DNA of 37,602 nucleotides from Dehalococcoidia bacterium (GTDB taxonomy: Bacteria; Chloroflexota; Dehalococcoidia; GIF9; UBA5629). This document shows, one piece after another, positions 7,619 through 15,135 of the stretch. Numbering within the stretch: position 1 is the stretch's first letter; each line of letters starts with the position of its first letter. The stretch spans positions 1 through 37,602 of the forward strand of contig JADHXB010000004.1 of the NCBI GenBank assembly GCA_016783155.1, in the 5' to 3' direction. The notes beneath the pieces were generated by a model. The model was not told the origin of the DNA and searched no databases. It saw only the letters and a list, made by a program, of their open reading frames with translations. A program made the position numbers and the translations under genes.

Positions 7619-7647
7619 TTGACTTTTGTGGGTGGAATGGTTATAAT
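7619..7647 (+). promoter_or_regulatory. Sigma70-like promoter TTGACT-N17-TATAAT
   Basis: -35 at 7619-7624, -10 at 7642-7647, 17-nt spacer. Confidence 0.75.
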
Positions 7648-7653
7648 TTCACC

Positions 7654-7712
7654 ATCATCACTAGTGGGTCGTCCCACTAGCCCCCTCTGGGTTACGACCC
7701 AGAGGTTTTTTT
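7654..7712 (+). ncRNA. Candidate short leader/sRNA: hairpin 7661-7680 plus terminator hairpin 7684-7705 with T7
   Basis: CTAGTGGG-TCGT-CCCACTAG then CCTCTGGGT-TACG-ACCCAGAGG-TTTTTTT, downstream of a promoter; 5' end inferred. Confidence 0.6.
7684..7712 (+). terminator. Intrinsic terminator/attenuator immediately upstream of NYN gene
   Basis: 9-bp perfect stem, 4-nt loop, seven T. Confidence 0.85.
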
Positions 7713-7721
7713 GTTTGGTCT

Positions 7722-8354
7722 ATGAATAGAGTCATATTCCTAGTAGACGGTTTCAATCTATATCACTCTACCAGGGATATAGCTTTGTATTGCCAAGGAC
7801 TGCGTGTAAAATGGCTAAATATATTTGCCCTTTGCAAGTCCTATTTATACATGACAGGCAAGGGTGCCACACTTGAACACATTTACTACTTCACTGCCTA
7901 CGCATACCATCTCAATGACCCAGGTGTGATTCAGCGTCATAGAGACTATGTCAGATGTCTTGAATCGACAGGTATTACCCTTAAGTTTGGCAGATTCAAG
8001 CCTAAGGATATCAACTGCCCACACTGCAAAAAGCAGATAACTCGGTACGAAGAAAAGGAAACGGATGTAGCCATTGGAGCAAAACTATTCGAGATACTAC
8101 AGGAGAATGAATGCGATACTGTCGTTATAATGACAGGGGACACGGACTTGGCACCTGCGATAAGGGCGGCGAAGCGTCTTTTCCCAAATAAGACAATCCT
8201 CTTTGCGTTTCCTTTTAGACGAAAAAACGACGAGCTAGCCCAAATTGCACCGAGGTCATTCAGAATGCATAAAGACAGTTATAGACGACACCAGTTTCCT
8301 AATCCAGTTGTCCTGCCAGATGGAACGCAGATTTACAAGCCCTCCACCTGGTAA
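7722..8354 (+). CDS. NYN/LabA-like (PIN-fold) domain protein, putative RNase
   Basis: MNRVIFLVDGFNLYHS...KETDVAIGAKLFE...DTVVIMTGDTDLAPAIRAAK. Confidence 0.9.
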   Translation: MNRVIFLVDGFNLYHSTRDIALYCQGLRVKWLNIFALCKSYLYMTGKGATLEHIYYFTAYAYHLNDPGVIQRHRDYVRCLESTGITLKFGRFKPKDINCPHCKKQITRYEEKETDVAIGAKLFEILQENECDTVVIMTGDTDLAPAIRAAKRLFPNKTILFAFPFRRKNDELAQIAPRSFRMHKDSYRRHQFPNPVVLPDGTQIYKPSTW

Positions 8355-10444: not shown

Positions 10445-10487
10445 CTCCTGCCCGCCCTGTTTCCCTGAGGAAAGGGGTGGGCAGGAG
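10445..10487. other. Long near-perfect hairpin between VWA gene and sigma factor
   Basis: CTCCTGCCCGCCC-TG-TTTCC-CTGA-GGAAA-GGGGTGGGCAGGAG; no T tract. Confidence 0.6.
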
Positions 10488-10597
10488 TGGCAGGTGTGAT
10501 TTCCCGGAAAGGCATAATTGGAATTGGAAAAAATGGGTTGATTGAGATACCGAACGTGCTACAATGTTGCAACGGAATACTGAATCGAGAAAACACC

Positions 10598-11143
10598 GTG
10601 ACAGACAACAATCTTGCTCATCACGGAATTGCCATAAGCAGCTTTACCGCGCTTTATGAAGAGCACATGACTTACGTTTTTCGCTATATAAACTATCGAG
10701 TAGGCAATCGAAATGAGGCAGAGGATTTGACATCCGTTGTCTTTGAGAAAGCCTTGGCTGCCTTCCACAGGTATGACAGGGACAAGGCGGCACCGCAGAC
10801 CTGGCTGCTGACTATTGCCAGGAATACGGTCACGGACTACTTCCGAAAATCATCCAAGAGGAATAGCCTACCGCTGGAGAGCGCCGTTGGTATTGAATCC
10901 GCGGACCCTTCGCCGCAGGAAGAGACGGAGAGGAGAGAAGAATACGAGCAGCTACGGGTCTGCCTGGCGACGCTGGCTCACCGCGAACAGGAAATCATAT
11001 CGCTCAAGTTCGGGGCCGAGCTCAACAATCGCCAGATTGCTTCCGTGCTCGGTCTATCCGAGAATAACGTAGGTACCATGCTCTTCCGTGCCGTCTGTAA
11101 GCTGAGGAATTGCTTTAAGGACTGGTCGAATGAAAAAAGGTAA
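10598..11143 (+). CDS. ECF-type RNA polymerase sigma factor
   Basis: FTALYEEHMTYVFRYINYRVGNRNEAEDLTSVVFEKAL (region 2) and REQEIISLKFGAELNNRQIASVLGLSENNVGTMLFRAV (region 4); GTG start. Confidence 0.9.
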   Translation: MTDNNLAHHGIAISSFTALYEEHMTYVFRYINYRVGNRNEAEDLTSVVFEKALAAFHRYDRDKAAPQTWLLTIARNTVTDYFRKSSKRNSLPLESAVGIESADPSPQEETERREEYEQLRVCLATLAHREQEIISLKFGAELNNRQIASVLGLSENNVGTMLFRAVCKLRNCFKDWSNEKR

Positions 11144-12452
11144 ATACACAGAGAAACAGTTCATCGAATATCTGGACAAGTTGCTGGCGGGAGAGGAAAT
11201 AAGCCTCGGCGACGACGTCAGCGATGAGGTGCGCTCAGCCCTCGAGCTGGCCAAGAAGATGCTTGCCTACCGCGATGAGCCTTCACCCGATTTCAGGGCA
11301 AGCCTCAGAGACAGATTGCTCCGCAAACTGGCCGAGGAAGAAGCAGCCGCCACCTCTCCGGCAAGGGGAGAAGAACGCCGGGATTGGACAGCAAAGCTTT
11401 TTCCTCAGAGTTTAGTGTGGCGCGCTGCGACCAGCGCTGCGCTTGTCGTGCTGCTCGTAGTCATCGGAGCTGTATGGTATACCGGCAGATATGGCCAGAT
11501 GTCAGCGCCAGCCTCTGCCCCACCACCTCCGCCAGCCTCTGTCTCTCCACCCCCGCTGCTTGAGGGCGATTACCCGGTTAGCCTGCCTTCAAATATCGTT
11601 CCGGAGCATATGACGTTCACAGCAAAAACAGCCCTGTCAGCCAAACCCGGCCAGGCGCCGGTCTACGAGATACAGAGCGCCGGCGTAACAACTGAATCTG
11701 TTACCGCGCTGGGAAGAAGGCTTGGATTCAGCGGAGAAGCCAGATTTATCGACGGCGGAGCTAAGATTGCCATGTTCGACGGCGAAGGCGAGGACATGCG
11801 CGAGCTTACCGTCTGGACCGCTTCCGGAGCCATTGAATACGGGTTCGTGGAGCCTGATAAGCTGTACCCACCGTACACGCCCGACCTTCCGTCACAGGAA
11901 GAGGCAGAGCATATCGCCTATGACTTCCTGGAGCAAGCGGACCTGCTACCACCCGGCTACGAAGATTTCGCCAAGGTAGAAGGTGAAACAAAGGCAATCG
12001 CCGGCGGCAGCTACAGTGTCGGCGAGAAATACACGGAAGAAACCGCGCAACAAGCCCCTGCCTACTGGTTAATCAGCTTTCCTTACCCTGTTGACGACAC
12101 CTGGACTACAGGGCCCGGCTCGAAGATTGAGGTCAGCATCGGCGATGGCGGTGAGGTCGCCGGGCTTCTCTGGGCATGGAGACAGATGACTCCGGTCTAT
12201 ACAGAAAGCATCATATCCCAAAAGCAAGCCTACCAGCACCTTATACAGGGCGAAGGCAGCCTTGATGTTCCTCTCGACTGCGAGCAGGTGGTCGTTGAGG
12301 ACGTTCAGCTCAAATACTGGATAAACCCACCCTCTGAAAAGCAGGACTATGCCGTGCCCGTGTACGAGTTCAAAGGTCAATGCCTGGATAAAAGCGGCAG
12401 GCATCTCGAGGACTTCACGGCATGGACAGAGGCTCTATCCAGCACCTACTGA
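11130..12452 (+). CDS. Anti-sigma-factor-like single-TM protein
   Basis: Overlaps sigma gene by 14 nt; N-terminal cytoplasmic region, TM 'SAALVVLLVVIGAVWYT', large extracytoplasmic domain. Confidence 0.75.
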   Translation: MKKGKYTEKQFIEYLDKLLAGEEISLGDDVSDEVRSALELAKKMLAYRDEPSPDFRASLRDRLLRKLAEEEAAATSPARGEERRDWTAKLFPQSLVWRAATSAALVVLLVVIGAVWYTGRYGQMSAPASAPPPPPASVSPPPLLEGDYPVSLPSNIVPEHMTFTAKTALSAKPGQAPVYEIQSAGVTTESVTALGRRLGFSGEARFIDGGAKIAMFDGEGEDMRELTVWTASGAIEYGFVEPDKLYPPYTPDLPSQEEAEHIAYDFLEQADLLPPGYEDFAKVEGETKAIAGGSYSVGEKYTEETAQQAPAYWLISFPYPVDDTWTTGPGSKIEVSIGDGGEVAGLLWAWRQMTPVYTESIISQKQAYQHLIQGEGSLDVPLDCEQVVVEDVQLKYWINPPSEKQDYAVPVYEFKGQCLDKSGRHLEDFTAWTEALSSTY

Positions 12453-14433: not shown

Positions 14434-15135
14434 ATGAATGAGTTACAATTCCGAAATACGATCCAAGCATGTCTTGATAATGGCGAACGTCTATTGTCGG
14501 ATGTCCTTATGCTCGAATTCTCAGAGCCTCCGGCAACAGCATTCGCTCTCGTAATTATTGCACAGGAAGAATTTGCAAAGGCATTTCTCCTAACACTTGT
14601 ATGCAAAGGCGTAATTCCATGGAACAAGTTCATTCGGCGAGCTACTCGTGATCACACATGCAAACAACTTCTCATTATGATTATGGACTACTTAAATCCG
14701 GACGTTGATGAATTCATTGCCCGAATCAACGTTCCAATTGAGAAGCAAATGACGAGTGCATTTCCCCCTCATATAGCCGATGCCATTAACATATTTCGGC
14801 ACGAGAAAATCCGCAGGTGGGAATCAGGGAATTGGTTCTGGGCTGATCCTCCGAATTATGCTCCCAAGGCGAAAAAAGTAGGCAACGGTGAGATAGATAG
14901 GCTTAAACAGGACCAACTTTACGTTAATATTAGTAAGGATGGTTTTGTAATACCGAAGACTGTCATAACCCAAAGTCAATTCGAGGATGAAAAGTATCGT
15001 GCCGAACGTCTTTCATCACTGGTTCGCGGTATGGTAGATGAGAATAGAACTTCATATTTGGAATACAAAGAGGTCACTGAGACTTTGCGGATCATGTTCG
15101 CAAACATGGCCTCTAATCATAAAAAAGACCGATAA
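14434..15135 (+). CDS. AbiV-family-like abortive infection protein
   Basis: ALVIIAQEEFAKAFLLTLV resembles the AbiV 'A..EE.aKA' motif. Confidence 0.6.
   Translation: MNELQFRNTIQACLDNGERLLSDVLMLEFSEPPATAFALVIIAQEEFAKAFLLTLVCKGVIPWNKFIRRATRDHTCKQLLIMIMDYLNPDVDEFIARINVPIEKQMTSAFPPHIADAINIFRHEKIRRWESGNWFWADPPNYAPKAKKVGNGEIDRLKQDQLYVNISKDGFVIPKTVITQSQFEDEKYRAERLSSLVRGMVDENRTSYLEYKEVTETLRIMFANMASNHKKDR

Follow-up and report, generated by a model that had tools for sequence, protein, structure and literature searches.

In the type III toxin-antitoxin (TA) systems, a promoter is followed by a small RNA, a Rho-independent terminator and the gene for an endoribonuclease (PMC5086642). In the AbiF/RCd22 system, transcription from a SigA-type promoter yields an RNA which, ended by a terminator, is the main short transcript, the toxin is produced by read-through, and the RNA acts in trans to neutralise the protein (PMC12373285). 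A nuclease-fold protein is also adjoined by the DUF3800-associated RNAs (PMC10910872). A further category of relevance is that of the Hma-embedded candidates (HECs), a designation going back to a preprint (doi 10.1101/2024.01.29.577857, as cited in PMC13092281 and PMC12988326), several of which have antiviral activity according to the statement of a later paper (PMC12988326). HEC-09 is catalogued in PADLOC as a protein model and is listed as a single-gene defence candidate, and the neighbouring RNA described below is not included in it. To our knowledge, no dedicated RNA partner of the NYN/LabA-like nucleases is known, and a literature search for an NYN protein with a dedicated small RNA, with preprints and most subscription papers lying outside its scope, found nothing.

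The locus considered here lies in a window of 37,602 nucleotides (the whole stretch of DNA that was analysed) from a Dehalococcoidia bacterium (contig JADHXB010000004.1), in which a small RNA gene is located directly before the gene for an NYN protein. In the window, as well as in the group of related loci to which it belongs (group A), the order of promoter, RNA, terminator and nuclease gene is that of the type III TA systems (viz. ToxIN, CptIN and TenpIN) and also that of AbiF/RCd22, both of which provide experimental precedent for it (PMC5086642, PMC12373285). The likeness to the type III systems extends in part to tandem RNA units, which some NYN members carry (the three-unit arrays of the kind seen at L073 resemble ToxI arrays), and to carriage on plasmids, chromosomes and prophages (PMC5086642). 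However, the RNA of the NYN module is usually one unit of two hairpins, the arrangement in one transcription unit does not hold for a divergent subfamily (subfamily B), and the putative toxin, whose inhibition by the RNA is predicted here, is an NYN/PIN-fold protein and not a homologue of ToxN, CptN or TenpN. As its toxin lies outside the ToxN family, the RNA-NYN module would act like a type III system but is no member of this class. AbiF/RCd22 differs in combining an Abi_2/HEPN-type protein with the abiF RNA motif (RF03085), whereas the protein here is of the NYN type and, at the gathering cut-off, no Rfam family was matched by the NYN upstream regions. At relaxed E-values, the matches to DUF3800-I, NsiR1, OmrA-B and PyrR were at chance level. 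Identity with DUF3800-I, which resembles the present case in being an RNA beside a nuclease-fold protein, was rejected, as the weak match of the window (16.8 bits against a gathering cut-off of 44.2, E=1.7) does not recur in other members and the protein is a different one.

The RNA gene and the NYN gene of the window

Table 1. Features of the RNA-NYN locus, with positions numbered from the first letter of the window.
Feature	Position	Strand	Basis
Sigma70-type promoter of the RNA gene, TTGACT-N17-TATAAT	7619..7647	+	11/12 consensus matches, top score in 3 kb
Small RNA gene, about 59 nt, structured part and T-run	7654..7712	+	R1 covariance model
Conserved 5' leader, CATCATCA in the window (family consensus AUCAUCCC)	7654..7660	+	33-sequence alignment
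Hairpin 1, CTAGTGGG-TCGT-CCCACTAG, 8 bp, loop TCGT	7661..7680	+	Folding, two-sided changes
Hairpin 2, intrinsic terminator stem, 9 bp, loop TACG	7684..7705	+	Folding, two-sided changes
Hairpin 2 cap, family-conserved motif G-U-[URCG]-A-Y	7691-7698	+	Alignment
T7 run of the intrinsic terminator	7706..7712	+	Sequence
NYN RNase gene, 210 aa, matching PADLOC HEC-09	7722..8354	+	Pfam, PADLOC, conserved residues

The features listed in Table 1 bear out an earlier, sequence-only reading of this DNA in its description of the promoter, of the two tandem hairpins with a T7 run after the second, of the NYN identity of the gene, and of the absence of a clear Shine-Dalgarno sequence before its ATG, which is located 9 nt past the end of the T-run with no such sequence in between. 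The 5' end of the RNA is deduced from the position of the promoter. The covariance model for this RNA (R1) matches the window, which belonged to its training set, with 70.9 bits (E=3e-21). In comparison to dinucleotide shuffles the fold is unusually stable (z = -4.25; 0/200 as stable), and a tRNA/tmRNA search found none.

PF01936 (NYN) is the sole Pfam family in the protein (40.1 bits against a curated cut-off of 24.2, E=6e-10), and the residues D9, N12, D115, D140 and D142 are invariant in 76 NYN proteins. Acidic residues of this kind form the active site expected of PIN/NYN nucleases. Based on the score above the curated cut-off and the conserved acidic active site, the protein is assigned to the NYN/PIN nucleases, with cleavage of RNA as its predicted activity. 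Its AlphaFold model (pLDDT 96.5) has a single significant fold match, to the NYN/LabA-like nuclease VPA0982 (PDB 2qip, E=1e-7), which shares the NYN-like fold but only 17% sequence identity, and a search of PDB by sequence gave no match. The HEC-09 model of PADLOC is matched at full length (E=5.5e-48; residues 1-210 on model positions 1-202/203), and the other NYN subfamilies tested also match this protein model.

The sequence-only reading had further proposed a cis-regulatory switch, in which hairpin 1 can pair over 8 bp with the terminator loop in a mutually exclusive manner and so governs read-through into the NYN gene. The complementarity is correct as given there, since TGGGTCGT (7665-7672) and ACGACCCA (7694-7701) are exact complements over 8 nt, and such a match is rare for the window RNA (0/200 shuffles equal it). 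However, the conserved alternative pairing disrupting the terminator, which is expected of an attenuator, is not seen in the family. When the 5' half of hairpin 1 is compared with hairpin 2 (loop and 3' arm), the longest complementarity has a family mean of 3.55, as against 3.54 for shuffled sequences, full complementarity of loop 1 to tetraloop 2 is seen in only 1/33 family members, and by sequence the 8-bp pairing occurs only in the window and one close relative. Further, both hairpins are very stable and both are retained in the minimum-energy fold. As the complementarity in the family does not exceed that of the shuffles, the alternative pairing should be interpreted as a local accident or a recent feature and not as the mechanism of the family, for which a switch of this kind is highly improbable. 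The second suggestion of the same reading, that of a small RNA which works together with the NYN protein, has fared better, and it is supported by the conservation and covariation of the RNA, its near-universal association with NYN genes, the divergent subfamily and the tandem units that are described below.

A conserved and covarying RNA gene linked to NYN genes

The RNA is a conserved, covarying gene with its own promoter and terminator, and it is tightly linked to an NYN gene with an intact active site across a very large number of unrelated bacteria and mobile elements. A protein scan of bacterial and archaeal genomes yielded 80 relatives of the window NYN (34-61% identity), upstream of which the same order of elements is found, viz. 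TTGACA...TATAAT, the leader AUCAUCCC, hairpin 1 (CCAG...CUGG), a short C-rich linker and the terminator, whose stem is capped by G-U-URCG-A-Y and followed by a T-run, with the start codon 8-65 nt further on. Both hairpins are thus conserved upstream of the orthologs: a terminator-like hairpin on the same strand and close before the start is present in 81/81 of the group-A upstream regions examined, where hairpin 1 and the leader precede it, in comparison to 6/218 other ORFs of the same loci, for which a somewhat stricter rule was used. Where a promoter is clearly recognisable, the distance from the end of the -10 element to the first conserved base is 5-9 nt in most members, and due to this the transcript most likely begins with the conserved leader. 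In many members the gap between the terminator and the start is only 8-20 nt, which leaves no room for a promoter of NYN outside of the RNA gene, and a separate NYN promoter downstream of the terminator is therefore unlikely.

Covariation analysis of the homologous upstream regions, based on an alignment of 33 RNA sequences, revealed two-sided (compensatory) changes in 15/18 pairs, viz. 8/8 in hairpin 1 and 7/10 in hairpin 2. Paired cells make up 94.9% of this alignment, versus 31-57% in controls with the partners displaced by 1-3 columns and 80% after shuffling of the columns. The outer C-C-A-G/C-U-G-G pairs of hairpin 1 and the URCG loop of hairpin 2 are conserved, and loop 1 is variable across the family. 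A reading of the GUURCGAY motif as a T-loop (tRNA mimic) was dropped, as its U-A spacing appears unfit for a T-loop. At E<=1e-5, the R1 model identified the RNA directly upstream of NYN and on the NYN strand in 75 loci, of which 42 lay outside the model-building set; elsewhere in 518 kb nothing was found at this threshold beyond second copies in L042 and L052. Within 301 Chloroflexota genomes, a strong match was limited to the window's own genome. The weaker matches that were read (L134 and L135) are without NYN and resemble chance terminators. Further R1 matches without an NYN gene are L133 and L136-L140, and weak R1 matches were seen at L226 and L227.

The association of the RNA with NYN extends over no fewer than 24 phyla as well as plasmids and viral contigs. 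The NYN protein tree, in which support is weak for many branches and metagenome bins account for many of the records, intermixes 24 NCBI phyla (34 label changes versus a minimum of 23). The occurrence of the gene is patchy, with 20/198 genomes carrying it in a sample around G355 (Desulfobacterales), and 12/241 and 27/248 in two other samples. It was found on 302 plasmids, 3 phage records and 55 viral contigs, and most of the viral-contig genes that were inspected again have the RNA upstream. The 3.55-kb E. coli plasmids with NYN occur in 12/5,426 E. coli genomes, where the gene is never chromosomal. On one such 3.55-kb E. coli plasmid, NZ_CP099726.1 (L110), several hairpins and a bidirectional terminator are present upstream of the NYN at 1935, and this plasmid offers a form of the module that is handy for laboratory work. 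At L162, an int-alpA RNA (RF02996; 188-259) upstream of a distant NYN suggests a copy on an integrative element.

Intrinsic terminators are in general frequent between genes, and it could be asked if the hairpin merely terminates the upstream TPR gene and stands before NYN by chance, with no link to it. However, with a promoter of its own, conservation over 24 phyla, covariation and the low rate in the control ORFs, this explanation has next to no likelihood.

Divergent RNAs, tandem units and loss of the nuclease gene

If the RNA were a cis-acting leader (an attenuator or a protein-binding element), through which NYN or another factor controls its own read-through, then no function in trans would be required of it. 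The group-A RNA is always on the same strand and just upstream, at the terminator-start distances given above, a layout which by itself also fits autoregulation of NYN in cis, and the AbiF RNA, too, reduces transcription of its gene (PMC12373285). However, the two-hairpin RNA of a second NYN subfamily (subfamily B; Dehalococcoidia, Actinomycetota and Thermus) is a different one and is encoded on the strand opposite to the NYN gene. In the direction away from NYN, a promoter is followed by hairpin 1, which has a GAGUA-type loop, and then by a linker and the terminator hairpin, and this promoter belongs to the RNA itself and is sigma70-like, with 10-12/12 matches in most members. Of its 19 pairs 14 covary, and its paired cells amount to 93.9%, compared with 35-54% for slid partners. 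As this RNA is transcribed away from the gene, it cannot be an NYN leader. Likewise at odds with a leader are the arrays of three consecutive two-hairpin units before NYN in Betaproteobacterial/Pseudomonadota and viral loci (L073, L174, L176, L177, L178 and L182), in which UGCG caps most second hairpins, the loops are of the UGCG/UACG type and a leader-like TCATCCC recurs before the units. One unit is present in the window and in most members, and two copies are found in L042 and L052. In a third subfamily (Desulfobacterota), the RNA is on the same strand and hairpin 1 carries GUUUCGAC, again with a GU-UNCG-AY loop. With these divergent RNAs and tandem arrays, the survival of RNAs where NYN is gone or broken (see below) and the lack of a conserved alternative pairing, a cis-acting leader is decidedly unlikely as the general explanation.

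In a sample of 67 NYN loci from three phylum-level sets, selected by protein only, 52 (43 same-strand and 9 divergent) have a terminator hairpin by a strict rule, versus 9/100 control ORFs. Of the remaining 15/67, about 13 show by eye a terminator hairpin that is bulged or larger-looped, and at L265 and L266, which encode two distant NYN proteins, no RNA was seen. On a Phaeobacter plasmid (L224), a long palindrome (CAACGTCTCTTAGCAACAAC...) is located before NYN upstream of 1468, with no clear RNA of the usual kind.

The two parts of the module are also not lost alike. In 35 carrier genomes, there is usually one copy of the RNA; of the extra copies, that of L132 precedes a second intact NYN and that of L130 an NYN with an internal deletion, and no NYN follows at L131. 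G006 (L107), which belongs to the family of the window but to a different genus, has an RNA region with 92% identity to that of the window, and of its NYN gene only 33 codons are left, with the first four residues fused to the last 29. The first RNA unit of L052 is accompanied by an NYN remnant, and in L013, L021, L024 and L058 there are stops in the NYN frames next to an intact RNA. In metagenome bins, some of these breaks may be assembly errors. A close group-A NYN without the RNA was not seen among these loci, most of which were found via NYN, with the result that orphan RNAs elsewhere are under-sampled. Retention of the RNA while the nuclease is lost is the predicted outcome if the cost of the module lies in the nuclease and the RNA serves to restrain it.

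The near-universal pairing of RNA and NYN, the strong independent promoters, and the conserved loop and leader as potential protein-binding parts would also be compatible with the RNA being an activating or guiding cofactor, which the NYN protein needs for finding or cutting phage or host RNA, similar to RNA-guided nucleases or a defence sensor. However, the RNA contains no variable guide-like segment, its variability being that of the covarying stems and loop 1, and the breaking of NYN while the RNA stays fits an antitoxin better than a cofactor. Hence, a cofactor role appears unlikely.

The RNA as a putative restraint of the nuclease

The view of the RNA and NYN as a two-component RNA-protein module is well supported. 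Since the divergent RNAs, the tandem units and the asymmetric decay favour a diffusible, dosage-dependent partner over a cis leader, we propose a type III TA-like module, in which the NYN nuclease is expressed by terminator read-through and is bound and restrained by the RNA, and to this reading we assign a probability of about 0.6. The strong promoter would give rise to an abundant RNA of about 60 nt (leader, hairpin 1 and URCG-capped terminator hairpin), and the ribonuclease would be made at a low level, solely when the polymerase reads through the terminator. By analogy with the type III TA systems and AbiF/RCd22, the diffusible RNA may then bind the protein and hold it in check. If the nuclease is freed, e.g. 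by phage shut-off or degradation of host RNA, then it could halt growth or cut RNA, which would constitute an anti-phage response. Counted against this model are the loci with no RNA (L265 and L266) or no clear RNA (L224 of Phaeobacter), the NYN fold, which is unrelated to that of ToxN, and the tested neighbours in the window, which are not known defence genes.

Of these neighbours, ten were tested, and apart from one weak match to AbiV no known defence gene was found. The match is that of a 233-aa ORF at 14434-15135 (+), and it is partial (PADLOC, E=4e-4). The window also encodes an ECF-like sigma factor (Sigma70_r2/r4) at 10487-11143 (+), which overlaps a 440-aa ORF without a Pfam match at 11130-12452 (+), and the two are arranged like a sigma factor and its own partner gene.

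A broader interpretation, which we regard as tentative and somewhat doubtful, is that the HEC-09-like NYN superfamily may be a large unrecognised class of RNA-controlled nucleases, in which each subfamily has its own two-hairpin RNA (viz. the same-strand RNA with the GU-UNCG-AY terminator loop, the divergent RNA with the GAGUA loop, the same-strand RNA with GUUUCGAC in hairpin 1, and the three-unit arrays), and where the RNA would be a phage sensor or controller of an immune nuclease and not merely a passive antitoxin.

The RNA family described here is a new candidate entry for Rfam. Based on the proposed restraint, the single-gene defence candidate HEC-09 probably represents an RNA-protein pair, with the enzyme being restrained by its RNA. 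If this is true, then a defence candidate listed in a database as a single gene consists of two components, and cloning of the protein alone may be toxic or may give an inactive construct, so that its activity is missed. In addition, the RNA-restrained nucleases, so far of the ToxN and Abi_2 types, would then include the NYN/PIN fold, with an occurrence in two dozen phyla or more and on plasmids of enterobacteria.
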